This document shows, in pieces, positions 5,614 through 20,918 of a DNA stretch of 25,954 nucleotides. The first letter of the stretch is position 1. Every line of letters begins with the position of its first letter. The DNA comes from Candidatus Neomicrothrix sp. UBA4742 (lineage in GTDB: Bacteria > Actinomycetota > Acidimicrobiia > Acidimicrobiales > Acidimicrobilacustridaceae): positions 1 to 25,954 of the forward strand of contig DHIQ01000107.1 of NCBI GenBank assembly GCA_002403895.1, read 5' to 3'. The notes under the pieces are model-generated. The model was not told where the DNA came from. It ran no database searches and was given only the letters and a program-made list of their open reading frames with translations. The position numbers and the translations under genes were made by a program.

Positions 5614-6963
5614 TCAGTTCGTCCACCTCGTCGATGGCTCCATCTCCGTCGTCCATTCCGACGCCGGGTGAAGCACCACGCCCACCCGGGGACTCTGCGG
5701 CGGCCCGCCGTCGGCCTTCGCGCGTGGTCGGGCTGCTGCCCTCAGCCCCCGACCCGGCTCGGGGACCAGCAGCGCCGCCGCCACCACGAGGTCCAGGATG
5801 TAGATGGAGGCGTCCGCCGTCCCCACCTCGGTCAACGAGGCGACGATGCCGTAGACGATGAGGAAGAGGGCCACGGCCCGCCGAGCGCCACGCACGTGGG
5901 TGACCGCCATGCCGAGCAGGAGCAGGAAGAAAGCCACCTGGACGACGATGCCGAACCAGCCGAGGTCGAGGTACGTGGCGATCCAGTTGCTGTCGACAGG
6001 CAGGCCGTTGAACGACTTGTTGGACAGCCCGTCCCCGAAGAGCTCCTGCCACCCCGACCTCGCCTGGTCCAGCGATGCCGACCAGACCTTGGCCCTGCCG
6101 GTCAACTGGACAGTATCCTGCGCCGACTGACCCCTGGCCGCCCAGGCGAGTAGTTCCGGGGCGAAGAGCGTGCCCGCGACGACCGCAAAGACCACGCCTG
6201 AGACCGACGTGCGCCGCACCCTCGCGTGACCGAGAAAGAGGCTCGCCGAGGCGATCGCGAGACCCAGGACCATGGCGAGCAGAGCGGTCCGTGTGTGGGT
6301 GCCGATGAGGACCGCGACGCTCACGACGATCCCGAGCAGGGCGTGGCTGCCACCGATGAGGCGACACATCCAGAGGATGACCGAGGTCCCGAGCAGCACC
6401 GCGGCATAGTGCGCAACCTGCGGGGACGGCATCGGCCAGACCGTGCCGGCCAGCCGGCCCTCGGAGGCGAAAGCCCTGCCTGGGGCCACGACGGCGCCTA
6501 CGACCACCGTGGACAACGCCCCCCACAACCAGAGCCGGTGGGCCCGTAGGAGGACGAGGTCGCGCCTGCCCCACCACGGGGTGAGGAGCCACAGGCACGC
6601 CACGAAAGCGATGAGGCGCATGGACCGGTAGGTGGACCCCACGAGGAACTCGCTGTGGATGCTCACCGCGAGGGCCATGACGGCCATGAGCGAGAGGAAC
6701 ACGAGGAACGCGCTCGGCCGGATGACAATGCGCGGGTTCGCGAGCAGGGCGAGCACCAACGCCAGGAGCAGCGACCCCTGGGCCACAGCCTGGTTGATCG
6801 GCTGCGGGATCGGCACCAAGGTCGGGTTGCTCGACGGCGTCAGGACGTTGAGGAGCAGGGCGCCCCACGCCAGCACCAGCAGGACCGGCAGCCGCCGTGC
6901 GCTCGTCCGAATCGAGGACGACGAGTCCGGGAGCGTCGGGAGGCTCGCGACCAGCCCGGTCAT
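5614..6963 (-). CDS. O-antigen ligase/polymerase (Wzy-type) membrane protein
   Basis: 449 residues with about 10-12 hydrophobic segments between residues 26 and 402. Members of the family either polymerise lipid-linked repeat units (Wzy) or ligate glycans to acceptors (WaaL). The family core is visible: a GTHTRTALLAMVLGLA segment (221-236) with its conserved Arg, then a long extracytoplasmic loop with LTGRAKVWSASLDQA (287-301), LFGDGLSNKSFNG (308-320) and DSNWIATYLDLGWFGIV (324-340), the typical Wzy_C pattern. Next to the two Wzz-like genes, a polymerase role is the simplest reading. Its ATG overlaps the stop of the upstream Wzz-like gene (ATGA). The 47 C-terminal residues after about 402 are hydrophilic and probably cytoplasmic. 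Confidence 0.88.
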   Translation of the reverse strand: MTGLVASLPTLPDSSSSIRTSARRLPVLLVLAWGALLLNVLTPSSNPTLVPIPQPINQAVAQGSLLLALVLALLANPRIVIRPSAFLVFLSLMAVMALAVSIHSEFLVGSTYRSMRLIAFVACLWLLTPWWGRRDLVLLRAHRLWLWGALSTVVVGAVVAPGRAFASEGRLAGTVWPMPSPQVAHYAAVLLGTSVILWMCRLIGGSHALLGIVVSVAVLIGTHTRTALLAMVLGLAIASASLFLGHARVRRTSVSGVVFAVVAGTLFAPELLAWAARGQSAQDTVQLTGRAKVWSASLDQARSGWQELFGDGLSNKSFNGLPVDSNWIATYLDLGWFGIVVQVAFFLLLLGMAVTHVRGARRAVALFLIVYGIVASLTEVGTADASIYILDLVVAAALLVPEPGRGLRAAARPRAKADGGPPQSPRVGVVLHPASEWTTEMEPSTRWTN

Positions 6964-8621
6964 GGCCGCCCCGACACTGTCGCGGCTACCGCAGGACCCT
7001 GGGCGGACCGGCCGAGGCTCTCGTCGTGTGGGTCTGCGCCCACCATGAGGGCAAACGGCAAACCGAGTCCAGCCGCCCGGACCAGCTCGGCCGTGGTCTC
7101 GAGCAGCTCAGGCGTCGACTCGCCGGCGGTGACCAACGGGACGACCTGCCCCACCCAGGACGCCAGGCTCTCGGCATCCACACCCGGGTCGACCCCAGCC
7201 AGCACGAGGACCACGTCCGCAGCGGCCCATCTCTCGGCGAGCTGACCAACATCCGACTCGTCATCGGTCCGGGGCGCGGTGGCCAGCTCAAGCGCCCCTG
7301 GCGGTCGCACCACGTCGTGTGGCTCCGCGCCACCACGCGGGGTGCGCCGGCGCACACCGCCCCCTCCTCCGGCCCACTTCTGCAGAGCGCCCGACGGGCT
7401 CAGGTCCACGAGCAGCACTGACCTGCCGTCCTCGCGCATGAGGTCCGCGGTGGCACCTAGGATGTCGGCCGCGGCCGCGGAGTTCCCCATCGCGGCCAGG
7501 GCGAGCCCGTCTCGGCTGATCGGCCTCGCCCTTTCGGGCGCGCCCCGTCGCCGGCCCCCGCCCTCCCGCACCTTCCGGGTCTGGCGTGCGGCGTGCCCGG
7601 GAGCGGACAGCGCGCCGGCCAGCGTCTGTGCCATGGCTGCGAGGTCCTGCCCGTGCCAGGCCCGGTGCAGCGACTTCAAGCCGCCCAGTGGGAAGCGCCG
7701 CTCCGGCCGGCCGCGGGACCGGACACTGAGGCGCACCGGCGTCCGCAGGGCGAGGGAGACGTCTTGGCGTCGGCGCACCCGCGTCGACGTCAAGGCCCGG
7801 AACAGGACCAGGGCCACCCCGAGGGCGGTACCCGCGATGAGGCCCGAGCCCCCGTTGAGGACCAGCGCGCGCTTCTCGGACCGGGGCTGGAGGGTTGCAG
7901 CGTCGAGGACGTGGGTGGACGAGATGGCGGACTCAGAGGTCAGGGAGGCGTCCTCCACGGCCCGCTGCATGTCGACGATCTGCGAACTGAGCTGGCTGCG
8001 GCGAGCGAGCAGCTCGGTCGCCTGATCCTGCCCTGCCTCGCCGCGCGCGGCCACGATCGAGTAGTCGCGGGTGATCGCGGAGACCTGCTCCTGCATCGTG
8101 GTTATGCGGGACTTGTAGCCGCTGATTGTGCCGCTGCTCAGCGACCGCAGCTCGGCCGCCCGGAAGTCGAGGTATTCGCGGGTGAGGGCGTTGACCCGCC
8201 GGACCGCGGACTCGTCGTCCGGCGCGGACACGTTGACCCGCAGGACCACGGTGGTCACGGGTTCGGCGCTCACGCTCCCCTGGAACGCCTCCGGCGGCTC
8301 GTCGAGGCCGAGCGCCCGCACGGTCCGGGTAGCCACCTCGCGCGTCCCGAGCAGGCTCACGTCCGTCGCCATGGCGGACTCGCCGTCGAAGTTGGTGGGG
8401 TGGACCATGAGCATCGTGGTCGAGGCCTTGCTGTTCGGCGGGAGCAGGAACACGGTCGACACGCCGAGCACCGCGCCGAGCAGGGCGGCAAGGACCCACC
8501 ACCGCCGGTCGCAGCGCAGCGCGCTGCGCAGGTAGTGCCAGGTGCCGAGGAGCGGACGCGGAGTCCCCGTCAGCTCCTCGTCGCCGACCTCGTCCTCGAT
8601 CCGCCAGGTTAAGTCGATCAC
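6960..8621 (-). CDS. Wzz-type chain-length protein with degenerate kinase-like domain
   Basis: 553 residues, with a GTG start overlapping the stop of the preceding Wzz-like gene (GTGA). Layout: a cytoplasmic lead, first membrane segment at about 41-61, an extracytoplasmic region with a coiled-coil-like stretch (about 165-225), second membrane segment at about 250-276, then a cytoplasmic C-terminal region from 280. This is the polysaccharide co-polymerase plan. The C-terminal region (about 370-545) looks like the Rossmann/P-loop fold of bacterial tyrosine kinases: a strand and loop LALAAMGNSAAAADILGA, a Walker A'-like SVLLVDLSPSG (401-411) and a Walker B-like ADVVLVLAGVD (468-478). The Walker A loop has no GK[S/T], and no C-terminal tyrosine cluster is present, so kinase activity is unlikely. 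An Arg/Gly-rich linker lies at about 342-368. Confidence 0.82.
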   Translation of the reverse strand: MIDLTWRIEDEVGDEELTGTPRPLLGTWHYLRSALRCDRRWWVLAALLGAVLGVSTVFLLPPNSKASTTMLMVHPTNFDGESAMATDVSLLGTREVATRTVRALGLDEPPEAFQGSVSAEPVTTVVLRVNVSAPDDESAVRRVNALTREYLDFRAAELRSLSSGTISGYKSRITTMQEQVSAITRDYSIVAARGEAGQDQATELLARRSQLSSQIVDMQRAVEDASLTSESAISSTHVLDAATLQPRSEKRALVLNGGSGLIAGTALGVALVLFRALTSTRVRRRQDVSLALRTPVRLSVRSRGRPERRFPLGGLKSLHRAWHGQDLAAMAQTLAGALSAPGHAARQTRKVREGGGRRRGAPERARPISRDGLALAAMGNSAAAADILGATADLMREDGRSVLLVDLSPSGALQKWAGGGGGVRRRTPRGGAEPHDVVRPPGALELATAPRTDDESDVGQLAERWAAADVVLVLAGVDPGVDAESLASWVGQVVPLVTAGESTPELLETTAELVRAAGLGLPFALMVGADPHDESLGRSAQGPAVAATVSGRP

Positions 8622-10201
8622 CGACGCCTCCGCCGTGACTCCAGAGGGGTGGCCTCCGTGGCGCTGGCCGACCCGGTCATCAGCGACGGCAGCGGCACCT
8701 TGACCGCCCGGTCGGACGCGAGCAGCCGGCCGGTCGAGCGGTCGAACGGGTCGGCGTTCACCACGACGGTGCAGGAGATGGGGTGACCGGCGTCGTCGGC
8801 GGCGAGCGCCACCTTGGCGAGCTCGTCGGCCGTCGCCGCCCCCGCCGTGACCGCGAGCAGGGTCACCACGGCGCCGTCGACGGTATGCAACTCCGGCTGC
8901 TCCCGGTCCACCACGGCAAGCTGCAGGGTGAGGTCCGCCGGGAGGTCGACGTCGTGGCGGGGGTCAACGAACAGGCCGGGGCGCGGCTGCTCATCCGGAG
9001 CGATGCCGAAGAAGGCAGCCCAGAGCGCGCTGGCCGACTCGTGCCGCTGCGCCGCGACCAGCCGGGTGCGCAGACCTGTGGACGCCGCGAAGGACGCGAC
9101 CTGCGGGCCCAGGGCCAGCGCATGGGAATCGCCGGCGAGGGTGATGACCAGCACGCTGGGCGACGCCGCGGCGGTCGACGGTTGGACCGCGAGGCTGGCC
9201 GGGTTACCCGGCGTGAGGAGTCGGACCAACTGCCGCAGTGTCCAGGTGTCGACATTGGGCGGTGCGTAGTTGCCCAACAGGCTGGTCCACCCTGCGACCG
9301 ACCGCGGGGAGTGCGCCCGCAGCGATGCCACCACGGGGATGCCGATGGCGTCGGCGACCTGGTCGCGCGAGCTCACGGCGCGCTCCCGGCGCTCCTTGAG
9401 GAGGAGTACCAGCGACACCAGGAGGACCATGGCCACCGCGCCGAGACCGCCGTACAGGCCGTAGCTGAGCAGCAGCGGCGTCCGCACGGCTCGGGACGCG
9501 TGTTGGATGACGCTCGCCGAGGCGCCTGCCTGCGGGACTGGTTGCTCGGTCGCGTCGATCTCCGTGCCGATCTTGTCGATCTGCAGCGCGAGGTTGGCCT
9601 GTTGGGCGGTCAGCGCAGCGAGGGCGGAGGCGTCCGCCCGGCCCTCGGACGTCCGCAGGTCGGCTCCCCTGAGCCGGGCCTGGGTGAGCTTGATCTGGCC
9701 GTTGACGGTGCCGAGTTCGTTCTTGAGGGTGGCGGCCCGGTCCGCGAGCGCGACCCGGGCTTTCTCGTCGACCGTGCTCGCCGCCCCTTCGAGGTAGTCG
9801 AGCTCGCCCTGCGCGACGGCCTCGCACAGGGCGCGAGCCGCGTCGGGGGTCAGATCGCGGGCGGTGATCAGCAGCACGTCCTCGGTGGGAGCCTCGACGT
9901 CAACCCGCTGCGCCACCTCGGCGAAGCGCAGCTCCGGGCGGACCGCGCGGCCCGCCGGACCGAGAACGGCGTCACTGAGGACGATCTGGACCTGCGTGTC
10001 GATGGCGTGGACGGATGATGCCTGGGGGCCTACGGGGGCGGGAGGGAGAAGCACCTTGCTCGTGCTGCTGTAGACCGGGGGTGCGAGATATGCCAGCGCC
10101 CCGCCACCGATCCCGCCCAGCGCCGCCGCGAGCAGCACGACGCCGGAGCGGCGTCGCACGATGTGCCACGTCGACGTGAGATCGATGGCCTGCTCGCTCA
10201 C
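8618..10201 (-). CDS. Wzz-type chain-length protein, second copy with degenerate C-domain
   Basis: 527 residues from a GTG that overlaps the stop of the heparinase-like gene (GTGA). The N-terminus carries the Wzz layout: DLTSTWHIVRRRSG, first membrane segment at about 19-38, a PPVYSSTSKVLL strand (41-52), a coiled-coil-like stretch (about 148-215) and a second membrane segment at about 244-268. Cytoplasmic residues 275-510 include DQVADAIGIPVVASL (280-294), the form often found between Wzz and the kinase domain, then a Rossmann-like strand PSVLVITLAGDSHALALG (348-365) where a Walker A motif would lie. The loop lacks Gly-Lys-Ser/Thr. A later strand, CTVVVNADPFDRSTG (477-491), resembles the end of the kinase fold. 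The protein probably controls chain length or export together with its neighbour; catalytic function is not expected. Confidence 0.8.
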   Translation of the reverse strand: MSEQAIDLTSTWHIVRRRSGVVLLAAALGGIGGGALAYLAPPVYSSTSKVLLPPAPVGPQASSVHAIDTQVQIVLSDAVLGPAGRAVRPELRFAEVAQRVDVEAPTEDVLLITARDLTPDAARALCEAVAQGELDYLEGAASTVDEKARVALADRAATLKNELGTVNGQIKLTQARLRGADLRTSEGRADASALAALTAQQANLALQIDKIGTEIDATEQPVPQAGASASVIQHASRAVRTPLLLSYGLYGGLGAVAMVLLVSLVLLLKERRERAVSSRDQVADAIGIPVVASLRAHSPRSVAGWTSLLGNYAPPNVDTWTLRQLVRLLTPGNPASLAVQPSTAAASPSVLVITLAGDSHALALGPQVASFAASTGLRTRLVAAQRHESASALWAAFFGIAPDEQPRPGLFVDPRHDVDLPADLTLQLAVVDREQPELHTVDGAVVTLLAVTAGAATADELAKVALAADDAGHPISCTVVVNADPFDRSTGRLLASDRAVKVPLPSLMTGSASATEATPLESRRRRR

Positions 10202-12264
10202 CCTCGCCTCCAGCTGCCGGTCAGGACGCTGTCCTTGGCTGCGCCTCCGGCCGCGTCCGGCCGACCTCCCTGGGACGACAAGGCGAGCACAGTGGTCAGG
10301 GTGAGTACGCCCGTCCACTCGCCCGCACCCACCAGCGTCGTACTGGCGACGCGCTCACCGAACCGGGGCGAGTACCAGCCCAGCACGGGGTCGGTCTCAC
10401 CGCGGTGGGCCGACCAGACCAGTCCGTTGGGGAGTTGCAGCACCGCGCCGCCCGGCCCGGATCTGCCCGCCCAGGACAGGTGCGCCTGCCTGTCGGCGAG
10501 GTGCACTTCGACCTCGGGCCCGACGTGCCAGGCGAGCCGCAGTGCGTGACGGGCAGAGCCGTGGAGGGTGTCCCGGAAGGTGATCGTGCGTTGCCCGGCG
10601 TCGAGCTCGACACACCGCACGTGGGTCAGGTCCGGGTCGAGGCGGGTGTAGCCGGCATGGCTCCCGGTCCAGGTTTGCACGTCACCGGACACGGCCGTGT
10701 GCGACACAGCCGCGTCGGCCTGTGTGGTCCAGAGGAACGGGCCGCCCTCGACCGACTGGTTGGTGCCGTCAACCTCGATGGTGTTGTGGGCCGCCGTGGA
10801 CCGGAAGTACCGGCGCCACTCGGGGTCGCCGTGGTAGCAGAACGTCCCGGGGTCGACCAGCACCTCGACACCGTCACAGCGCACCTCGGCGGAGAGGGCG
10901 TCGGCGTGCGCGTGGGCCGCGATCGACAGGAACCCGTGCGGGCCTCCGTCCAGGCGGCACCAGATCTCCGGCCCGTCGACGGACGGCGTGCGCAACAGGT
11001 GGATCCCTGCGTCGGCGAATGCCGTGGGCGCGACTTGCGGCCGACCTGTGACCTCGACGGGCGTCGCCAGCGCCCCGACGACGACGCCGGCCACGCTCAT
11101 GCGGCTGACCGGCCACCATGCCGGTCTCCCGAACACGGTCTCGCCGACGCCCAGCAAGGCACCCCACGGGTCCAGCTCGGGGTCGTCGACGACGAGTGCC
11201 CTGCCCTCGTCCCCGTCACCCTGCCGCGGCGGCTGGCCTGCGGCGTCGACGAGGGCGGCGGCGACGTCGAGCGAGGATGCCAGCAGCGCTCGCGTTGCTG
11301 GCGTCAGTGGGTATCCGGCCCGGTCCCCTTCGACTAGCGCCACCAGGCCCAGCTCGGACACGAACCGGTGGTAGTCAGTGGCCAGTTCGCGGTTGACGCC
11401 GCTCGGGAAGGTGTTGGCGGCCAGGGTCTCCTCGAGCTCGTCGGCGGCGTCCTCGCGCCAGGCCGCGCTCTCGGTGAACCAGGGGAAGGCGCAAGCGGCG
11501 ACGAACCGCCCCACGGCCTCGGCGACGACGTGGTTGTTGGCGGAGGAGCCCCGGCTGCGGAACGCGGCGAGGTACTCCTGGTGCCACCGGATCTGGTGCA
11601 GCGCCGCGGGGTTGTTCTCGAAGAGGTCGTGCGCGCCGGCCCAGCCGTCGAGCAGCCGACGCACCCAGACCCAGCTGGTGAGCCGGACACCCACCTCGAT
11701 CCCGCTCGTCCAGTGCACACCCGAGAGGAACGGGTTGGCCGCCCACCAGGAGCGCAGCTGGGAGTCGATGACCGCCGCATACCGCTCGTCGCCGGTCAGC
11801 CACCAAGCCGCCGCGAGGAGGGTGAGGTGGTGGTGGCGTGATAGCTCCCACACGGACTTGATGTTGCCCGTCACCCTCTCGTCCCGGTGATCGATCCGGA
11901 ACGCGTAGAGGTCCTGAGGCGCGCGACGCCCGGTCACGACGTCGTGGAACCAGTCGGGCTCGGCGATATCTGGCCGTGGCATCCCCAGCAGCGAGTGATC
12001 CCCGGCCAGCAGGCGGTCGGCCGACCGGACGAGCACGGCCGCGACGTCCGGCGGCACCTCGTCGCGGGTCTCCCGGGGCAGGGTGGCGGCGAAGGTGCGA
12101 CCGGTCAGGAGCCCCGGGACCACGGCGGGCAGCCCGGCCCCGGGACGCACCTGGCGCGAGGCCCAGAGCGACTGCCGGCCCCGGTCCCGGACGCGGTGTA
12201 GCATCTCCCCGGCCGACATGCCGCGCAGCCGCCGAAGGTACCACCCGGGAGAGGTCGGAGTCAC
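10198..12264 (-). CDS. Heparinase II/III-like family protein
   Basis: 688 residues from a GTG overlapping the stop of the two-domain oxidoreductase (GTGA). The family contains polysaccharide lyases that cleave uronic-acid-containing glycans, and related proteins common in capsule and exopolysaccharide loci. Residues about 125-345 form the helical toroid part, including NIKSVWELSRHHHL (134-147), SGIEVGVRLTSWVW (187-200) and SRGSSANNHVVAEA (237-250). From about 410 comes the beta-sandwich part, with AAHAHADALSAEV (449-461), DPGTFCYHGDPEWRRYFRST (471-490) and AAHNTIEVDG (491-500); the paired His and Asn residues match the conserved Heparinase II/III region. No signal peptide is visible, so the protein may be cytoplasmic or use another route. 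It may trim or edit a uronate polymer during assembly; an epimerase-like or structural role cannot be excluded. Confidence 0.87.
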   Translation of the reverse strand: MTPTSPGWYLRRLRGMSAGEMLHRVRDRGRQSLWASRQVRPGAGLPAVVPGLLTGRTFAATLPRETRDEVPPDVAAVLVRSADRLLAGDHSLLGMPRPDIAEPDWFHDVVTGRRAPQDLYAFRIDHRDERVTGNIKSVWELSRHHHLTLLAAAWWLTGDERYAAVIDSQLRSWWAANPFLSGVHWTSGIEVGVRLTSWVWVRRLLDGWAGAHDLFENNPAALHQIRWHQEYLAAFRSRGSSANNHVVAEAVGRFVAACAFPWFTESAAWREDAADELEETLAANTFPSGVNRELATDYHRFVSELGLVALVEGDRAGYPLTPATRALLASSLDVAAALVDAAGQPPRQGDGDEGRALVVDDPELDPWGALLGVGETVFGRPAWWPVSRMSVAGVVVGALATPVEVTGRPQVAPTAFADAGIHLLRTPSVDGPEIWCRLDGGPHGFLSIAAHAHADALSAEVRCDGVEVLVDPGTFCYHGDPEWRRYFRSTAAHNTIEVDGTNQSVEGGPFLWTTQADAAVSHTAVSGDVQTWTGSHAGYTRLDPDLTHVRCVELDAGQRTITFRDTLHGSARHALRLAWHVGPEVEVHLADRQAHLSWAGRSGPGGAVLQLPNGLVWSAHRGETDPVLGWYSPRFGERVASTTLVGAGEWTGVLTLTTVLALSSQGGRPDAAGGAAKDSVLTGSWRRG

Positions 12265-14519
12265 GGCACCTCCCCGTGACCAGACACCAGGCTCTCGCCC
12301 ACGGCGATGGTGCTGCGGGTCGTGGCGACCAGCGAGTCCAGCGGAATGGGCATCGGCCCGCCCGTGCGGACGGCCTCGACGAACGCGGCCACCTGGGTGC
12401 GCTGACCCTTGTCCTGACCGGCGAACGACCGCTTGACGTCCTTCCCCGAGCGGGTCCACACCGTCGCCCGGGTGAAGTTGTCCAGCCGGGCGTTACCGCC
12501 ACCGCCCGAGACGTCCAGCGTCTCCTTCGGGAAGCGGGCGTCGCCGTCCGTGGCATAGGTGATCGTGGCCAACGACCCATCCGCGTACCGCAGCACCGCG
12601 GTGAGGTCAAGGCCGTTCGACGTCCGGTACGACACGACCTCCACCGGGTCGTGGCCGACCCACGCGCTGAGGGTGTCGATGAAGTGACCACCCTCGCCGA
12701 GGAACCGCGACCCCTCGAGACCCTCGTTGAGGTACCAGCTCGACGGGTCGAGCCGGCCCGCGTTGACCAGGTAGCGCGCGCTCACCGGGCCGCCCGGATC
12801 GCCGAAACGACGTCGCAGATCGGTGAACAACGGGGCGAACCGCCGGTTGAACCCGACCATCAGCCGGTCGTTGCCCGTGGCGGCGACCACGGCCAGGACG
12901 CGGTCGACCTCCTCCCTAGTGAGCGCAAGCGGCTTCTCGACGAAGACTGCCTTGCCCCGCTCCAGTGCCCGGCAGACGAAGTCCGCGTGCGAGTGGTGCC
13001 GCGTCACGACGAACACCGCGTCGATGGCCGGATCGTCCAGCACCTGCGACACGTCGGTGCTCACCGCCTCGAACCCGAACTTGCGCTGGGCATTGACGGC
13101 AGACAGCGACCGCGTGGTCGCGACCGTCGTCAGGGCAGCGGACGGGAGCTTGGTGAGGTGCGGCAGCAGCATCGAGCTGGCATAGGCACCCGCGCCGATG
13201 AACCCGATCCGGACCGACCCGGCCTGCCCGGTAGCGCTGGTCGAGGGGGAGCGGAGGGTACGCGCGAAGGCCGCCGTAGCGGGGGTGACGAAGCCGTTTA
13301 CGGCACCGTTCACCGACGCATCGGCCCCGGCGGCCGGGGAGCCTGGAACCTCGTGCCCGACCACGTCCGCGGCAGCCCCGTCCCCCGCGTGCGCGTAGGC
13401 GAAGAGGAAGCCCACGCCCTTCAACGACCCGGTGCGCAGCTCCTCGTACACCTGCGTCGCGTCCTCGATGGCCCGCGTACCGGACACCAGCGAGGCGACC
13501 TCAACCGAGCCGTTGGCAACCAGGTCCAGGAAGCAGCCGAGGTTGCGCCGCTCGGTCCACCGCACATAGCCCGCGGGGTAGTCGACGCCGTCGAGCTCGT
13601 ACCGGTCGTCGTACCGCCCGGGTCCGTACGACCGCGAGAACCGGACGTCGAGCTCCTTCTCGTAGTAGGCGTTCCACGGAAGGTCGAGCTTGGTCTTGCC
13701 GATGTCGACGACGCGGGCCCGGTCGCGAGCGAGCCGCGCCGCGAGCTCGACGGGGCCGTTGGACTCGCCGCCGGCGGCGAGGTAGATCTGGTCGGCACCG
13801 AGGCCGCCGGTGGCCTCCAGGACCACCTGCTCGAGGTACGCCGTGCCCTCAACGTCGGGGGCCGCGCACGCGATCGCTCCGGCCTCCTCGGCCATGCGGC
13901 ACCGCACCGGCACCGTGTCGACACCGACCACCCGAATCCCCGCAGCGACGAGCAGCCGGAGGACCAGCTGCCCGATCAAGCCGAGGCCGATGACGCACGC
14001 CATCTCGCCGAGCTGGCCCTCACCGCGGCGCACCCCCTGCATGGCAATGGCACCCACGGTTGCGAAGGCGGCGTGCTCAGGCGCGACGCCGACGGGGACC
14101 GGCACGCAGAGGTTGGTGGGCACCCAGTTGAGCTCCGCGTGCAGGGCGAACTCGTTCCCCGCGGCCGCGACGAGGTCGCCCACCACGAACTCCTCAGCGC
14201 CCGTCCCGACCTCGACGACGACGCCGCACAGCGAGTAGCCGAGCGGCGTGTAGCTGTCGAGGGTGTTGATGGCCTTCTTGTATGTCGCGACGGGTCCCTG
14301 CTGCGACACCGAGTCGATGACCTTGCGCACCTGGTCCGGCCGCGCCCGGGCCTTGCCCACCAGGGACAGCCGCGCCTCGGTGACCTTCATCATCTCGGTC
14401 CCTGTGGAGATCAGGGAGTAGAGGGACCGCACGAGCACTCCACCCGGCTTGCACGCCGGCGCCGGCACGTCAAGCACCACGAGCTCCCCGGACTTGTAGT
14501 TCTGGGCGACTTGCCTCAT
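12261..14519 (-). CDS. Two-domain oxidoreductase (MDR fused to Gfo/Idh/MocA)
   Basis: 752 residues. The start ATG at 14519 has GGAG about 8 bases upstream. Residues 1-375 are a medium-chain dehydrogenase/reductase-like domain with a coenzyme-binding GLGLIGQLVLRLL (178-190). The usual catalytic-zinc Cys position near residue 38 is absent: the segment reads LISTGTEMMK. An Ala/Gly-rich linker spans about 376-434. Residues 435-752 are a Gfo/Idh/MocA-type NAD(P)-binding oxidoreductase with IGFIGAGAYASSMLL (438-452), the EKP motif in VFVEKPLALT (525-534), and a C-terminal domain including LGEGGHFIDTLSAWVGHD. Fusions of this design are often found beside heparinase II/III genes in glycan loci. It probably oxidises, reduces or epimerises a sugar nucleotide or a lipid-linked sugar; the substrate is unknown. 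It lies 73 bases after the amidotransferase gene. Confidence 0.9.
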   Translation of the reverse strand: MRQVAQNYKSGELVVLDVPAPACKPGGVLVRSLYSLISTGTEMMKVTEARLSLVGKARARPDQVRKVIDSVSQQGPVATYKKAINTLDSYTPLGYSLCGVVVEVGTGAEEFVVGDLVAAAGNEFALHAELNWVPTNLCVPVPVGVAPEHAAFATVGAIAMQGVRRGEGQLGEMACVIGLGLIGQLVLRLLVAAGIRVVGVDTVPVRCRMAEEAGAIACAAPDVEGTAYLEQVVLEATGGLGADQIYLAAGGESNGPVELAARLARDRARVVDIGKTKLDLPWNAYYEKELDVRFSRSYGPGRYDDRYELDGVDYPAGYVRWTERRNLGCFLDLVANGSVEVASLVSGTRAIEDATQVYEELRTGSLKGVGFLFAYAHAGDGAAADVVGHEVPGSPAAGADASVNGAVNGFVTPATAAFARTLRSPSTSATGQAGSVRIGFIGAGAYASSMLLPHLTKLPSAALTTVATTRSLSAVNAQRKFGFEAVSTDVSQVLDDPAIDAVFVVTRHHSHADFVCRALERGKAVFVEKPLALTREEVDRVLAVVAATGNDRLMVGFNRRFAPLFTDLRRRFGDPGGPVSARYLVNAGRLDPSSWYLNEGLEGSRFLGEGGHFIDTLSAWVGHDPVEVVSYRTSNGLDLTAVLRYADGSLATITYATDGDARFPKETLDVSGGGGNARLDNFTRATVWTRSGKDVKRSFAGQDKGQRTQVAAFVEAVRTGGPMPIPLDSLVATTRSTIAVGESLVSGHGEVP

Positions 14520-14592: not shown

Positions 14593-16506
14593 TCATGGCG
14601 CACCCACCCCAGCCGCACGCATGCTGCGGTACCACTGCTCCAGGCAGAGCAGCTGCCAGACCTGCTTGGACTCGTCGCGCCGACCGCTGCGCTGGTCGTC
14701 GACGAGCCGCTGCAGCGGCTGCCGCCGCAGGAACCCGGTGCGCACGAGCTCGCCATCGAGCAGGACGTCGTCGACGAGCGCACGCAGGTCGTTGGTGACC
14801 CACGCACGCAGCGGGGCGCTGAAACTGGCCTTGGGGCGGTCGATCACCTCGTCGGGCAGCCAGGCGCGCGCAGCGTCCTTGAGCACTGCCTTCTGGGTGC
14901 GGCCGCGGATCTTCTGCGACCCGGGGGTCGAGAACGCCGCCGCGAACACGGCCGGGTCGACGAAGGGCACGCGGACCTCGGTGGAGGCGGCCATGCTCGC
15001 CCGGTCGGTATACGTGAGGTTCAGCCCCACCATGAACATCCGGGTGTCCGCCAGGCACATGCGGTCGACCTGGTCGGTGAGCGTGGTGTCCTCGTAGATC
15101 GCGCGGTGCCGGCCGACGACCCCGTCGACGGCGGAGGCGAGCGCCGGGTCGAGCAGGTCCACCAGCTCGTCGCGGTCGTAGAGGGTGTAGCTGCGCCGGA
15201 ACGCCTCCTCCTCCGGCAGCTCGGCGAACGTGAGGAACCGCTGAGCCCACCGGACGCTTCGGAGGCCGCGCTGGCCGACCGCGACGGGCAGGGACCGCAC
15301 CACCGGAGCCACCACCCCAGCCCGCAGCGCCCGCGGCACGCGGCGGTAGCGCGCAGTCAGCAACGTCGCGAGGTGCTTGCGGTAGCCGCCGAAGAGCTCG
15401 TCCGCGCCCATGCCGGACAACAGCACCTTGACGCCCGCCTCGCGAGCCGCGTCGCACATGAGGAGCGTGTTGATCGCGGCCGGGTCACCGATCGGCTCGT
15501 CGAGGATGTCGACCATGCGAGGCAGCAGGTCGACGACGTCAGGGGCAATCTCGATCTCGTGCAACCGGATCCCCAGGTGCTGGGCCATCATCCGCGCGTA
15601 GCGCGCGTCGTCGGGCATGGCCTCCAGCTTCTGGTCCTCCGGGCGGAACGCGATGGTGTACGCCTCGATCGCGGGGTTCGACCGGTGCGCCAGGGCGGTC
15701 ACGATGCTGGAGTCGAGGCCCCCGCTGAGGAACGACGCGACCGGCGCGTCCGAGATGAGGTGGGCCTCGACCGACGCCTCGAGGACCTCGCGCAGATCGA
15801 ACTGCGCGCCGGCTGACGCGCGAGCCGCCTCCTGCGCCGCGTCCCAGTAGACGCCGCTCGCCCGTGAGCCGTCCCTGAAGTAGGTGCTCCAACTCCCCGG
15901 CGGCAGCTTGCGCACGCCGTGGACTGCGTCGTACTCCTGCGGCAGCCAGTAGTACAGGGTCGAGGCGACCATCGCTGCGGGGTCGACGCTCAGCTCGGAG
16001 CCCACGGCGGCGACGATCGCCTTGAGCTCGGAGGCGAAGAGCACGCCCGCACCACGAGGCATGACGTACAGGGGCTTGATGCCGAGCGGGTCGCGGGCCA
16101 GGGCCAGGCTGCCCGTGCGCTCGTCATGGATGGCGAACGCGAACATCCCACGGAACCGCCGGAGGGCGTCCGTCCCCCACGCCCGCCACGCCTCGAGCAC
16201 CACCTCGGTGTCCGAGGCCGAGACGAACCGCACACCCCGCCCCTCGAGCTCGTGCCGGATCTCACGGTAGTTGTAGACCTCACCGTTATAGCTGAGCGTG
16301 AGTCCGTCCTTGCGGAACGGCTGATCGGAGGCCCTGCTCAGGTCGATGATCGAGAGCCGTCTGTGCCCCAGGACCACTGAGGTCTCGGGGTCCACCAGCT
16401 CGACGAGCCCGCAGGCGTCCGGGCCGCGGTGACCGATCCGATCCATCATCGCCCCGACGAGCACCTTGCCGTCCGGCTGCTGGAACGCCCCGACCACGCC
16501 ACACAC
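14593..16506 (-). CDS. asnB: Asparagine synthetase B-like glutamine amidotransferase
   Basis: 637 residues from a GTG at 16506, chosen because it puts Cys at position 2, the glutaminase nucleophile that becomes N-terminal after Met removal; it lies 2 bases after the upstream stop. Residues 1-210 are a class II glutaminase domain (CGVVGAF, RIGHRGPD at 23-30, LSYNGEVYNY at 71-80, and a GTDALRRFRGMFAFAIHDER element). Residues 235-600 are the ATP-pyrophosphatase synthetase domain with the SFLSGGLDSS loop (258-267). The family adenylates a carboxylate and replaces AMP with ammonia from glutamine. Members inside polysaccharide loci can amidate uronic acids (for example WbpS of Pseudomonas aeruginosa). 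Given the GDP-mannose dehydrogenase in the same operon, amidation of a hexuronic acid is more likely than free asparagine synthesis, but this is inference. Confidence 0.9.
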   Translation of the reverse strand: MCGVVGAFQQPDGKVLVGAMMDRIGHRGPDACGLVELVDPETSVVLGHRRLSIIDLSRASDQPFRKDGLTLSYNGEVYNYREIRHELEGRGVRFVSASDTEVVLEAWRAWGTDALRRFRGMFAFAIHDERTGSLALARDPLGIKPLYVMPRGAGVLFASELKAIVAAVGSELSVDPAAMVASTLYYWLPQEYDAVHGVRKLPPGSWSTYFRDGSRASGVYWDAAQEAARASAGAQFDLREVLEASVEAHLISDAPVASFLSGGLDSSIVTALAHRSNPAIEAYTIAFRPEDQKLEAMPDDARYARMMAQHLGIRLHEIEIAPDVVDLLPRMVDILDEPIGDPAAINTLLMCDAAREAGVKVLLSGMGADELFGGYRKHLATLLTARYRRVPRALRAGVVAPVVRSLPVAVGQRGLRSVRWAQRFLTFAELPEEEAFRRSYTLYDRDELVDLLDPALASAVDGVVGRHRAIYEDTTLTDQVDRMCLADTRMFMVGLNLTYTDRASMAASTEVRVPFVDPAVFAAAFSTPGSQKIRGRTQKAVLKDAARAWLPDEVIDRPKASFSAPLRAWVTNDLRALVDDVLLDGELVRTGFLRRQPLQRLVDDQRSGRRDESKQVWQLLCLEQWYRSMRAAGVGAP

Positions 16507-16508
16507 GG

Positions 16509-17771
16509 CTACGCCTCCGCGCGAGTTGGTTCGGCCACGTCGGCGACCGGCGGCACAGTACGCCCGGTCAGCGCGTCGAAGACCGCCAGGTACCCCACCC
16601 GCTGGTGCTGCCACGCAAGCGACCGCTCAACCCGCTCACGGCCACGGCGCCCCATCTCCACACGCGCCTGCGGGTCGTCCACGAGCTCGACCAGGGCCCG
16701 AGCGTAGGCCTCGACGTCCCCCGGCTCGACGTACCGCGCGGCGTCGGCCGCGGACACCCGCGTCTCACGGAGGTCGAAGGCCACCACGGGGAGCCCGTAG
16801 GACATGTACTCCATCGTCTTGTTCATCGTCGAGACGTCGTTGAGCGGGTTGAGGGGATCGGGCGACATGCCCACGTCGGCAGTGGAGAACACCTCCGTGA
16901 CGGTCTCGTCCGGCACTCGCCCCGGCATCTCGACGACATCCTCCAGCCCGAGTCGGTTGCGCTCGACCACCAGGTCCTCCCAGCAGTCACCGCGCCCCAT
17001 GAGCGTGAACGCGATGTCGTCGCGGCCCATCTGGTTAACGATCACGTCGGCGGCTCTCAACACGATGTCCACGCCGTCCTGCGGCCCCATCACCCCGAGG
17101 TAGGTCAGCAGGTGCGGCCGCCCCCGGCGCAGCTCGGGCTTGGCCTCGCGGCGGCGCAGCCGATCGGGGTCGGGTCCGGTGCGCACCACAGTGACGTGCT
17201 CCGGAGCCTTGCCACCCCGAGACCTGGCGATCGCGGCATACGAGTCGTTGGTCGAGGTGACCCGGTCCGCGCAGCGGAACGTCATCCGCTCCAGGAAGAG
17301 CAGGCCGCGCAGCAGCATCGCCGGTCCGTCGGGGAAGCGGGAACGGAACAGCTCCGGGCACAGGTCATGGTGATCGAAGACGAACCGCGTACCGTCCAGC
17401 AGTCGCAGCAGTCTGGCCAGCGGCCAGAAGATGTCTGGCGGGTTGCAGGCCTGCATGACCGCGAACCGTCCGGCTCGCCGGGCCCGGAGCGCGAGCCTGG
17501 CGGTGGCGAGGAAGGAGTAGACGTACTCGACCACGAAGCCGATCGCGCTGCCACCGGGTGCGTACGGCTGGTAGGCGAGGATGCGCACCCCGTCGACGAC
17601 CTGCTCCGGCCCGGTGCCCTCACCGCGCGGACAGACGACCGTGACGTCGTAGCCCGCCCCTTCAAGAGTCTGGCACTCCAGCCACACCCGCCGGTCGAAG
17701 GGCACCGGGAGGTTCTGCACGATGATGAGCACGCGCGACCGGGCGGTATCGGACTGGTTGAGCGAGGTCAC
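16509..17771 (-). CDS. GT4 family glycosyltransferase
   Basis: 420 residues; the GTG start overlaps the dehydrogenase stop (GTGA). The N-terminus VLIIVQNLPVPFDRRVWLEC (14-33) is the characteristic opening of a GT4 subfamily common in exopolysaccharide loci, followed by CNPPDIFWPLA (109-119), which lines the acceptor cleft. The donor half includes LTYLGVMGPQDGVD and, near residue 315-340, STMNKTMEYMSYGLPVVAFD, in which Glu within the KTMEYMSYGLP helix takes the place of the usual EX7E second glutamate. It should transfer a hexose-type residue from a nucleotide sugar to the lipid-linked repeat at the cytoplasmic face. As the neighbour of the GDP-mannose dehydrogenase it might use GDP-mannuronate or GDP-mannose, but the donor is not readable from the sequence. 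Confidence 0.9.
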   Translation of the reverse strand: MTSLNQSDTARSRVLIIVQNLPVPFDRRVWLECQTLEGAGYDVTVVCPRGEGTGPEQVVDGVRILAYQPYAPGGSAIGFVVEYVYSFLATARLALRARRAGRFAVMQACNPPDIFWPLARLLRLLDGTRFVFDHHDLCPELFRSRFPDGPAMLLRGLLFLERMTFRCADRVTSTNDSYAAIARSRGGKAPEHVTVVRTGPDPDRLRRREAKPELRRGRPHLLTYLGVMGPQDGVDIVLRAADVIVNQMGRDDIAFTLMGRGDCWEDLVVERNRLGLEDVVEMPGRVPDETVTEVFSTADVGMSPDPLNPLNDVSTMNKTMEYMSYGLPVVAFDLRETRVSAADAARYVEPGDVEAYARALVELVDDPQARVEMGRRGRERVERSLAWQHQRVGYLAVFDALTGRTVPPVADVAEPTRAEA

Positions 17772-19090
17772 CAGCTCACTCCCGCGTAACCGGCGAGCTG
17801 CTCGATATCGGCGCCGAGGCGCCCGTGCAGGTCGATGACGAGCTTGGGCGACGCAGCCACGACCGCCCGCAGAGCGTCCTTGTCCGAGGAGGAGATGATG
17901 AAGACCTCGGCGCCCTCGACGGCCTCCTCCGGGGTCGCGGCAAGCAGCCGGTTGACGTGCGCGAGCTTGCTCTGCAGGTGGCGCAGGTTGGCACCGACGA
18001 GCCGGTCGGGATTGACGATCGGATCATAGATCCGCACGTCGAGACCCTTGCCCACGAACCGTTCGGCGAGCTCGAGGTTGGGGCTCTCGCGCAGGTCGTC
18101 AGTGTCCATCTTAAAGCTCAGCCCGACGAGGCAGACGCTGCGGTACCCGGTCTGCAGCACCCGGTCGACGACGGAGCGCACGACGACCTCGTTGCTGATG
18201 AGGGCGGAGCCGACCATCGGGATCTCGACGCCGTTAGTGCGGGCCATGCTCTGCAGGGCGCGCAGGTCCTTCGGGAGGCACGAACCGCCAAAGGCGAAGC
18301 CGGGGCGCAGGTAAGCAGGCGAGACGTTGAGCTTGCGATCCTCGCTGAAGATCTCCATCACCCGCCGGCCGTCGACACCGAACGTGGAGAACACCCGCCC
18401 CATCTCGTTGGCGAAGGTGACCTTGACGGCGTGGAACGCGTTGCACGCGTACTTGAGCGACTCCGCCGTGCCGAGGTCGACATGATGGACGTCCTGGCCG
18501 AGGAAGGCGAACATCGCGCCGAGCGCCTCGTGCGCCCTGGTGTCCTCGGTGCCCACGACCACGAACGGCGGGGCGAAGAAGTCCTCCACCCCACAGCCCT
18601 CGCGCAGGAACTCCGGGCACATCGCGGTCGCGACAGACCAGCCCTCCGGCAGGCCTCCGGACGAGAAGACGGGCGCCACCACACCGGCACAGGTGCCCGG
18701 GGGCACGGTCGAGCGGATGACCACGGTGTGGAAGCCACCGGCCGGCGGCGTGGCCACCTCCATGGCGTCACGCACGTCCTCGACCGCGCGGCGGATGTAC
18801 GTGAGGTCCGTGTCGCCGCGGGCAGACGACGGCGTGCCCACACAGATGAGGGAGACGTCGGCCCCCTCCACAGCGAGGCGCGCGTCGGTCGTGGCCTGCA
18901 GCAGCCCGGCTGCGACCGCATCATGGACCAGTACGCCGATGCCGGGCTCGACGACCGGGCTCTCGCCCCGGCAGATAGCCTCCACCTTCATCGCGTCGAC
19001 GTCGACGCCCACGACTTCGTGCCCTCGCGACGCCAACCCGGCCGCGGTGACCGTGCCCACGTAGCCCAGTCCGAAAACGGCGACCTTCAT
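17768..19090 (-). CDS. GDP-mannose 6-dehydrogenase-like protein (AlgD type)
   Basis: 440 residues. The ATG at 19090 has AGGAGGT about 7 bases upstream and begins directly with the NAD-binding MKVAVFGLGYVGTVTAAGLA; a longer in-frame start would add unrelated sequence. The family carries out two-step NAD-dependent oxidation of a nucleotide sugar to its uronic acid. The catalytic Cys is C271 in FAFGGSCLPKDLRAL (265-279). The form GSCLPKD, together with CVGTPSSARGDTDL (83-96) and FHAVKVTFANEMG (219-231), matches GDP-mannose 6-dehydrogenase (AlgD) better than UDP-glucose dehydrogenase, which usually has GSCFPKD. The likely product is GDP-mannuronate. It is the first gene of the ten-gene operon. 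A UDP-sugar substrate remains possible. Confidence 0.85.
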   Translation of the reverse strand: MKVAVFGLGYVGTVTAAGLASRGHEVVGVDVDAMKVEAICRGESPVVEPGIGVLVHDAVAAGLLQATTDARLAVEGADVSLICVGTPSSARGDTDLTYIRRAVEDVRDAMEVATPPAGGFHTVVIRSTVPPGTCAGVVAPVFSSGGLPEGWSVATAMCPEFLREGCGVEDFFAPPFVVVGTEDTRAHEALGAMFAFLGQDVHHVDLGTAESLKYACNAFHAVKVTFANEMGRVFSTFGVDGRRVMEIFSEDRKLNVSPAYLRPGFAFGGSCLPKDLRALQSMARTNGVEIPMVGSALISNEVVVRSVVDRVLQTGYRSVCLVGLSFKMDTDDLRESPNLELAERFVGKGLDVRIYDPIVNPDRLVGANLRHLQSKLAHVNRLLAATPEEAVEGAEVFIISSSDKDALRAVVAASPKLVIDLHGRLGADIEQLAGYAGVSW

Positions 19091-19382
19091 GCCGGGTACC
19101 TCCTGGTCGAAGCCTTCAGGGACGAGCGCGACCCCTTGCTGAGTCACGCTCCGGAGGGTGGCGCCGTGCTGCACGTGCCTGCGGTTGCCCCGGCCCGCCG
19201 GGGCCTCGCCCCTGCGCCTGGGACCACCTCGGGCACCGTCGCACCGTTGCGGCGCGTCCCCTCCACGGCTCATACAACACCCGCAATGGTGTCGGGCGGT
19301 TCGTCCGGAGATCGTACGGTGGTCTCACTCAAATGGTGGAGACGGAACGGCTCTGCGCATGGTCGACGGGATCGTCCGGCGA
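19091..19382. other. Longest intergenic gap inside the locus; likely operon promoter region
   Basis: These 292 bases separate the flippase stop from the dehydrogenase start; both genes are on the minus strand. Apart from the ribosome binding site next to 19090 there is no supported gene. TTGAGT and TACGAT boxes can be picked out on the minus strand, but their spacing does not make a convincing -35/-10 pair. No hairpin with a T-run was seen. The length compared with other junctions suggests a separate promoter for the ten-gene operon. Confidence 0.4.
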
Positions 19383-20918
19383 TCACGCGGGTCGATCACG
19401 CAGCCGTGACGGGCGCAGGCGCAGGAACCGCGCCGCCCAGTTCACGTATCGCTCCGGGACCGGCAGCAGGCCCAACGCGTCACGCATGATCGACCCCGCC
19501 GTGAGCCGGAGCAGCACGAGGTCGAAGGCGGCCGTGGCGACCACGGTCACGGCCAGGACGTCCCAGCCTCCCTCGGTGCCCGACAGCACGCGGTAGAGCA
19601 GGACACCGACACCGGTCGCGATCACCGAGGGCACCAGAACCGTCCCGAACGGCCGGGCGACAGCCCGGACAGGAATCCCGACGATCCGGGCCACGAGCAC
19701 CCACCGGGCGGGCGTGGCGAGCAGGGCGAGGCAGACGAATCCGACCGTCACCCCGACTAGGCCCCACCGCACCGCGACAGCGGTGATAGCGATGCTCGTC
19801 GCGTCGACAGCTACGGCGTACGCGAGCCACGCGCCCGGACGCCCGAGGCCGTAGAACAGTCCGTGGTCGAGCATGGCGCCAATGGTGACGATGCCCGCGA
19901 CAGCCAGCGCCTGAGCGGGCGCGACGCTCTGGCGCCACTGCTCTCCAAACAGGGCCGGCACGAGCCCGGGGGCCGTCACGACGATGATGACCATCACCGG
20001 TGCGACGACTGCATACGCGACGCCGAGGGCCTTAAGGTAGGAGGATCGGAGCCGGTCCATGGACGAGCGCAGCTTGGCGAACACCACGGTCGAGACCGGT
20101 GTCAGTGACACCGCGGTGAGCTCCTGGGCCACCTGCACCAGCCGCTGCGCGATGTTGAGCAGGCCGAGCGCCGCGGGACCGAGGGTGACGGTGATGATCC
20201 AGCTCTCGACCCAGCCGCGCAGGGCCGCGACCAGATCCACGCTGGAGACACGCACCCCGAACACCGCCATCTCCCGAAAGAGGCGTGGTGACAACTCGAG
20301 CGACGGCACCCAGCGGGCGCTGCGCCATGCCAGCACGGCCACCACCCATTGGGTCGTGACCACCTGGCCGACGAGCGCCCACACACCACCGCCGTGCAGC
20401 GCCAGCACCACGGCGACGACCTGGGCGAGCAGGGCCGCGACGAGGCTCTGCAGGGCCACTGCCCGGAACCTCATCGAGCGCCGCAGCAGCGCCATGGGCA
20501 CTGCTGACAGCACGGTGGGCACGACGGCGAGCACGAGGGACCGAAGCACGTCGCGCAGGTCGGCGTTGCGGAAGGCGTCGGCGAGCAACGGCGCGCCGAA
20601 CCAGAGCGCGGCGGACAGGATGACGCCGGCAGCGGCGGAGGCCCAGAACGCGGTACTGAGGCTGCGCCGGTCGACGTCGTCGGCCTGCAGCAGGTAGGTC
20701 GAGAAGCCCAGGTCGGCGAGCAGGTACAGCACCGGGATGAAGGTCATGGCGGCCGCCACGACGCCGAACTCCCGCGGGGTGATGTGCCGCGTCAGCACGA
20801 CCAGCGTGACCAAGCCGCTGATTCGCACGGCCCACTTCTGCGCCGCGAGCCACATCATCCCCGACGCGGCCCGACGCCCGAGCTGTTCGTCCTTCGGCGT
20901 CTCCTGCTGTATGCCCAC
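19383..20918 (-). CDS. Wzx-type oligosaccharide flippase
   Basis: 511 residues with about 12-14 hydrophobic segments, the plan of the MOP/PST transporter group that flips lipid-linked repeat units across the membrane. The N-terminus GRRAASGMMWLAAQKWAVRI, then TRHITPREFGVVAAAMTFI and LADLGFSTYLLQ, matches the WzxC-like family (Polysacc_synt type). Hydrophilic loops contain RSMRFRAVALQSL and GWVESWIITVTLGPAALGLLNIAQ. The GTG start at 20918 lies 11 bases after the aminotransferase stop with no clear ribosome binding site; ATG codons near residue 20 are alternatives, though they would cut into the first helix. It is the last gene of a three-gene set with the two aminotransferases. Confidence 0.9.
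   Translation of the reverse strand: MGIQQETPKDEQLGRRAASGMMWLAAQKWAVRISGLVTLVVLTRHITPREFGVVAAAMTFIPVLYLLADLGFSTYLLQADDVDRRSLSTAFWASAAAGVILSAALWFGAPLLADAFRNADLRDVLRSLVLAVVPTVLSAVPMALLRRSMRFRAVALQSLVAALLAQVVAVVLALHGGGVWALVGQVVTTQWVVAVLAWRSARWVPSLELSPRLFREMAVFGVRVSSVDLVAALRGWVESWIITVTLGPAALGLLNIAQRLVQVAQELTAVSLTPVSTVVFAKLRSSMDRLRSSYLKALGVAYAVVAPVMVIIVVTAPGLVPALFGEQWRQSVAPAQALAVAGIVTIGAMLDHGLFYGLGRPGAWLAYAVAVDATSIAITAVAVRWGLVGVTVGFVCLALLATPARWVLVARIVGIPVRAVARPFGTVLVPSVIATGVGVLLYRVLSGTEGGWDVLAVTVVATAAFDLVLLRLTAGSIMRDALGLLPVPERYVNWAARFLRLRPSRLRDRPA

Follow-up and report, generated by a model that had tools for sequence, protein, structure and literature searches.

The stretch of DNA analysed here, hereafter the window, is the whole of contig DHIQ01000107.1 (C80, 25,954 bases) from the draft genome of Candidatus Neomicrothrix sp. 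UBA4742 (GCA_002403895.1, here G000; 285 contigs, 79% complete). Within an exopolysaccharide (EPS) locus it carries two adjacent minus-strand genes, A (8618..10201, 527 aa) and B (6960..8621, 553 aa), each encoding a Wzz-type co-polymerase with a fused domain resembling a bacterial tyrosine kinase (BY-kinase) without a P-loop. A and B are very probably both pseudokinase co-polymerases of this EPS pathway. It also appears reasonably probable that they are paired subunits, similar to polysaccharide co-polymerases (PCP) of class 2a, of one Wzx/Wzy EPS machine, and form a mixed co-polymerase which operates without phosphorylation. In the standing model, co-polymerase cycling depends on tyrosine phosphorylation; a conserved pair in which neither kinase works would be a natural test of that need.

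Both proteins have the PCP-2a plan, in which two transmembrane segments flank an extracytoplasmic alpha/beta and helical-hairpin domain, with a cytoplasmic kinase-like domain fused to them. Pfam Wzz was above cut-off for A, not for B. The kinase-like domains span residues 273-485 of A (8747..9385, minus strand) and 279-531 of B (7029..7787, minus strand), and structural models and fold comparison assigned the BY-kinase fold to both. This confirmed the co-polymerase plan and kinase-like C-terminal domain that a preliminary description of the window had proposed for the two proteins. The B profile aligned to Wzc from sequence alone, across the P-loop stretch, Walker A' and Walker B (best chain E 1.4e-5); at the P-loop the sequence is SPSIGMTF in this chain (Met at 540) and naraaaav in the B consensus. 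Queried with the A profile, the PDB sequences yielded FepE (E 0.078) and no BY-kinase, which was found by fold comparison only. Pfam searches of the kinase-like domain gave CbiA in one of 23 B rows (E 0.037) and CBP_BcsQ in two of the 23, and neither in 25 A rows.

Residue conservation was counted in alignments of 82 B rows (A3) and 80 A rows (A4). Apart from the entry for the window itself, 15 B matches lay outside these alignments, as did 11 A matches, and the B counts include one odd row, P0097, which later resembled a Streptomyces-type A. The Walker A pattern was absent from the C-terminal half of all 82 B and all 80 A rows, and the bare GK[ST] was present in three B rows and no A row; P0048, outside the alignment, has the Walker A pattern in the linker only. 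The lack of a Walker A loop, first noticed in the two window proteins, extends to the aligned rows of both families. The old Walker A site of A reads AGDSHALA (residues 356-363; 9113..9136, minus strand), and the residues in and around it are strongly constrained: D358, Q367 and A369 were found in 80/80 rows, P366 in 77/80 and G365 in 76/80 (usually as GPQ). The equivalent site of B, GNSAAAAD (residues 379-386; 7464..7487, minus strand), is poorly conserved. By this pattern of conservation the old P-loop of A is re-specified rather than eroded, and that of B is loose.

The two proteins also differ in the acidic residues that they retain. At Walker A' of B (LLVDLS, residues 403-408; 7398..7415, minus strand) the first Asp is kept in 80/82 rows and the second is replaced, by S or T in 81/82; the corresponding Asp of A is lost, position 383 being A, T, P or S in 77/80. 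At Walker B of A (residues 426-433; 8903..8926, minus strand) Asp432 is present in 59/80 rows, the register having been set by eye. The equivalent position 476 of B, placed by profile, is E in 55 and D in 15 of the 82 rows, and Gly in the window. Tyrosine is missing from the tail in 78/82 B and 79/80 A rows, with a single Tyr in the remainder, which bears out the lack of a Tyr-rich tail remarked on previously; where such a tail would be, A has an Arg-rich, low-confidence stretch (residues 501-527; 8621..8701, minus strand).

Past the last strand A and B share a motif of the type D-x-x-D-x-[ST]-x-G, seen as DPFDRSTG in A (residues 484-491; 8729..8752, minus strand; D487 and G491 kept in every one of the 80 rows) and within GADPHDESLG in B (residues 528-537; 7011..7040, minus strand; D533 invariant in 82 rows). 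A loose pattern for this motif found it in none of 15 relatives without a tandem; it is missing from the A frames of loci L053-L057, and some B frames end before it. The BY-kinase oligomerisation motif is EX2RX2R. As a plain pattern it occurred in 0/80 A and 3/82 B rows, but it was also missed by 7/14 canonical relatives. Decay of A and B into remnants was rejected: their frames in the window are unbroken, and each family keeps invariant residues across 80-82 rows.

A and B are conserved as a pair, standing in tandem at 14 loci (the window, L015-L018, L030, L031, L064, L053-L057 and L065) in hosts that include Pedococcus, Phycicoccus, Nocardioides and Streptomyces. Around the pair there is a conserved EPS core of nucleotide-sugar dehydrogenase, GT4 glycosyltransferase, AsnB, bi-domain oxidoreductase and heparinase-like lyase; at L054, L056 and L057 inspection covered the pair itself. 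The B profile located the pair on genome contigs of Pedococcus sp. 5OH_020, Phycicoccus sp. Soil748, Pedococcus cremeus and Nocardioides ungokensis, and all four read GT4-AsnB-oxidoreductase-heparinase-A-B-Wzy, as does genome G443. In N. ungokensis (L018:7075-10590) the A frame is broken from ~8520 to 8672 and the open frame continues into B. Genome G267 keeps the order from GT4 to B with one extra long frame ahead of A, and the window's Wzy had no match within the 19 kb read there; a 6.3-kb contig of G200 carries the pair together with Wzy, and a further frame separates B from Wzy. Two probable Streptomyces genomes (G386 and G521) have the order UGD-GT4-A-B-AsnB-oxidoreductase-heparinase. In Streptomyces sp. 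KN37 the pair is on the linear plasmid NZ_CP139046.1, the one examined of three plasmid matches, which carries genes for a sugar transferase, a nucleotide sugar dehydrogenase, GT4, Wzz, Wzz, asnB, a bi-domain oxidoreductase and an alginate lyase family protein; its two Wzz genes overlap by 4 nt, and neither product has GK[ST] or a Tyr in its last 60 residues. Database hits numbered 96 for B and 90 for A; 23 A/B protein pairs among them agree in the length of the longest contig, and so probably sit on one contig.

Relatives without a tandem provided a control. At 1e-20 the A profile matched 12 of 345 genomes of the order: G000, G200 and G267 have tandem A-B (E <= 3.6e-78), and the other nine have PCPs with no second PCP in the 3.5-4.1 kb fetched. 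A search of the family (5/37 genomes at 1e-10) supplied four more PCPs without a tandem, and a search of the phylum (9/396 genomes at 1e-25) returned G000, G443, five tandem A-B of one genus and two canonical PCPs; the order and phylum searches scored the top three to four candidates per genome, so that absences in them are weak. All but one of these 15 non-tandem PCPs, recovered with the same profiles, carry GK[ST] and between one and eight Tyr in the last 60 residues. The exception, the Wzz-type protein at L029 (G117), has GAGTS in place of GK[ST], keeps Walker A'-like and Walker B-like motifs and has no Tyr in its last 60 residues. It may be a further BY pseudokinase of independent origin.

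A and B are homologous over their full length (hhalign probability 99.9, E 9e-33, 467 columns). In a tree of 46 rows A, B and the canonical PCPs came out as one group apiece (100/100, 100/100 and 99/96 respectively), and L029 fell next to the canonical PCPs on a long branch; taken without a root, the tree fits one loss before the duplication as well as two separate losses. Distances within A and within B correlated with r 0.83 over 22 matched pairs, one further pair with a partial A being left out, against a maximum of 0.33 in 1000 permutations.

The A family also has a branch of short proteins, ~430 residues long without the helical hairpin and mostly metagenomic (P0188-P0305). One short protein, P0179, gave 2098 matches among 7997 candidates scored, and the best 120 were listed; none of the 118 new relatives among these has Walker A at the place of the P-loop. 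GK[ST] occurs in 73 of the 118. In 71 it lies at residues 90-130, within the extracytoplasmic part, and it comes late in P0229 (at 423) and P0274 (at 314). The latter stretch, APGPVGKS, fits a loose Walker A pattern and was rejected since it lies ~45 residues past the old P-loop place. In the 396 phylum genomes P0179 matched G000 and G443 only, with the top three to four candidates per genome scored. In protein P0180 (867 aa) residues 61-220 form a heparinase segment and residues 385-647 an A segment; this protein is either a natural fusion or a sequence error.

The EPS locus fills most of the window and lies chiefly on the minus strand. This strand encodes a GT2, a DegT aminotransferase, a Wzx-type flippase (19383..20918), a nucleotide-sugar dehydrogenase of UDP-glucose/GDP-mannose type (17768..19273), a GT4 (16509..17771), an asparagine-synthase-type amidotransferase (frame 14593..16614, with the true start internal), a bi-domain oxidoreductase combining Zn-ADH and GFO/IDH/MocA (12261..14519), a heparinase II/III-like lyase (frame 10198..12459, start not fixed), A, B, a Wzy-like polymerase (5614..6963, Wzy_C below cut-off), a methyltransferase and a second GT4; the plus strand has one GT4 and one PAP2 gene. 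Three successive 4-nt overlaps link heparinase, A, B and Wzy. G-x4-GK[ST] is absent from every frame of the window, therefore the window has no kinase of the BY type; a functional kinase elsewhere in the locus would, by the preliminary description, have refuted its reading. The window's trinucleotide distance was ~0.06 to the Pedococcus, Phycicoccus and Nocardioides loci and 0.145 to seven small segments from G000 itself, and the A profile had no strong match in 36 other genomes of the same family; horizontal transfer or mis-binning of the contig is possible. Another Wzz-family protein of G000 (contig C90, L002:1462-2901) ends shortly past the second membrane segment and has no kinase-like domain.

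The Streptomyces loci point to the ebosin cluster of Streptomyces sp. 139. In the passages available from PMC11078827, ste6 is assigned to nucleotide sugar precursors, ste5 and ste7 to glycosyltransferases, ste8 and ste9 to polymerization and export and ste10 to modification; a reference title in PMC4347597 gives ste10 as an asparagine synthetase, and an excerpt of PMC8902715 names ste8 Wzz. With the numbers taken as order, ste5-ste10 as described in these excerpts matches KN37, and also matches L062/L063 (probably Streptomyces, with tandem A-B) from the dehydrogenase on. These excerpts say nothing about kinase motifs in Ste8 or Ste9. Ebosin contains glucuronic acid (PMC11078827, in part), which fits the nucleotide-sugar dehydrogenase of the locus. 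An ebosin-type set was defined from KN37 (dehydrogenase, GT4, Wzz-Wzz, AsnB, bi-domain oxidoreductase and heparinase/alginate-lyase-like protein), ste itself being documented in part. The window, L062/L063 and KN37 share this set in a rearranged order, the pair of the window lying downstream of the lyase. The ste8 reverse qPCR primer matched the A genes of L054, L053, L056 and L055 with 0, 2, 3 and 4 mismatches respectively, and L057 had no match within four; for the forward primer, the A genes examined gave no match with up to four mismatches. On the strength of the Streptomyces gene order and the one primer, A most likely corresponds to Ste8 and B to Ste9.

How the pair might act can be outlined from these data. 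A and B would co-assemble as a mixed ring or stacked heteromer beside the single Wzy, with the pseudokinase domains providing the surfaces for ring formation and docking. The geometry of assembly or the A:B ratio, rather than a cycle of Tyr phosphorylation, would set chain length. The parts would be divided, A holding the constrained new surface at the old P-loop and B the Walker A' Asp, while AsnB may amidate the polymer and the lyase may trim it. That A and B act as a heteromer is favoured by a small degree; it is a reasoned guess drawn from the tandem overlap, co-inheritance, asymmetric conservation and the precedents of PssP-PssP2 and EcpK-EpsV described below. A narrower proposal is put forward tentatively, as somewhat less than an even chance: an obligate two-subunit ring with A and B alternating or stacked, both kinases dead, the old P-loop of A acting as docking surface and B doing the rest.

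Other explanations have to be weighed against a mixed co-polymerase. The two proteins form separate clades and each looks complete as a PCP, and competition between two Wzz proteins is known in Shigella (cited in PMC4182512, seen in excerpt); A and B could thus be independent homo-oligomers which compete for one Wzy and yield two classes of chain length. This is unlikely, as the tandem at 14 loci, the matched distances, and the overlaps of 4 nt present in both the window and KN37 go beyond what competition requires. It is quite improbable that one of the pair is the co-polymerase and the other a scaffold through which Wzy is coupled either with export or with the heparinase-like lyase. The position of A between lyase and B in the window, with overlapping ends, would suit such a role, as would the joining of heparinase and A segments in P0180 and the clade of short A without the helical hairpin (rows P0174-P0186), but in KN37 and L062/L063 two genes separate B from the lyase, and P0180 may be a sequence error.

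Two points limit the case for a phosphorylation-free mixed co-polymerase. The correlated A and B distances could come from common descent alone, from which binding is not separated. Furthermore, when seven pair-bearing genomes were searched with TIGR01007 above its cut-off, seven matches were found in the two Pedococcus, the Phycicoccus and the Nocardioides genomes, one or two in each, all with a canonical P-loop and three to six Tyr among their last 60 residues, and all outside the fetched loci L015-L018; trans-phosphorylation may therefore occur in these four genomes. Phosphorylation of A or B by such an unlinked BY-kinase, or an unusual mode of nucleotide binding, could also draw on the Asp residues partly kept at Walker A' of B and Walker B of A. 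This reading is nevertheless the least probable of those considered, since A and B offer no Tyr-rich tail as a target, and G000, G200 and G267 gave no match above cut-off, although these are drafts (79-92% complete). The earlier suggestion of control without phosphorylation consequently stands in part, favoured by the dead motifs, the conserved pairing, the lack of Walker A in the window and three of seven genomes with no match above cut-off, and opposed by the canonical BY-kinases elsewhere in the other four. The hetero-complex and the nucleotide-independent assembly suggested with it keep the standing of hypotheses. If the obligate two-subunit ring is correct, actinobacteria would own a phosphorylation-free, composition-controlled chain-length device, the ebosin pathway included. 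A conserved pair without a working kinase would also recast ste8 and ste9 and database entries named 'Wzz/FepE/Etk N-terminal domain-containing protein', 'capsular polysaccharide biosynthesis protein' or 'hypothetical protein', and the question is tractable, as ebosin-type Streptomyces are cultivable and the polymer is measurable.

In whole architecture and fold A and B are alike to Wzc (PCP-2a) and CapAB (PCP-2b), from which they differ in having no Walker A, no full set of catalytic Asp and no Tyr tail. In motif content they resemble EcpK-EpsV of Myxococcus xanthus and HfsB-HfsA of Caulobacter, in which, according to the available parts of PMC12004946, a protein that has the BY-kinase fold but neither Walker motifs nor a Tyr tail serves a PCP-2 in a phosphorylation-independent model; EcpK-EpsV functions without phosphorylation motifs. 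A and B share the missing Walker A and Tyr tail, though single catalytic-site Asp remain. EcpK and HfsB are stand-alone pseudokinases for a kinase-less PCP as described there, whereas in actinobacterial A and B each PCP has its own fused pseudokinase. Fused forms such as SMc01795 of Sinorhizobium meliloti combine PCP and pseudokinase in one chain, like A and B (PMC12004946, after Cuthbertson et al., in excerpt); those listed are single Gram-negative proteins, set apart from A and B by that listing and not by sequence. PssP and PssP2 of Rhizobium leguminosarum form a heterocomplex and resemble A and B as two similar co-polymerases on one polymer, but are not in tandem, pssP2 lying in Pss-II and pssP in Pss-I (PMC4182512, in part). 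In Actinoplanes one Wzz is given for each of three clusters, and the passages available from PMC13390465 contain neither 'tyrosine' nor 'Walker'. No report of an actinobacterial tandem of BY pseudokinase co-polymerases was found in the open-access literature with the search terms used. The novelty claimed in the preliminary description is thus narrowed, given that BY pseudokinase co-polymerases are already published (PMC12004946, in the parts available) and the Streptomyces pair is very likely ste8/ste9. Apparently new, as far as searched, are the conserved tandem arrangement of two PCPs with fused pseudokinases, the difference in the residues that each retains, the spread of the pair in actinobacteria and its tie to the ebosin locus.

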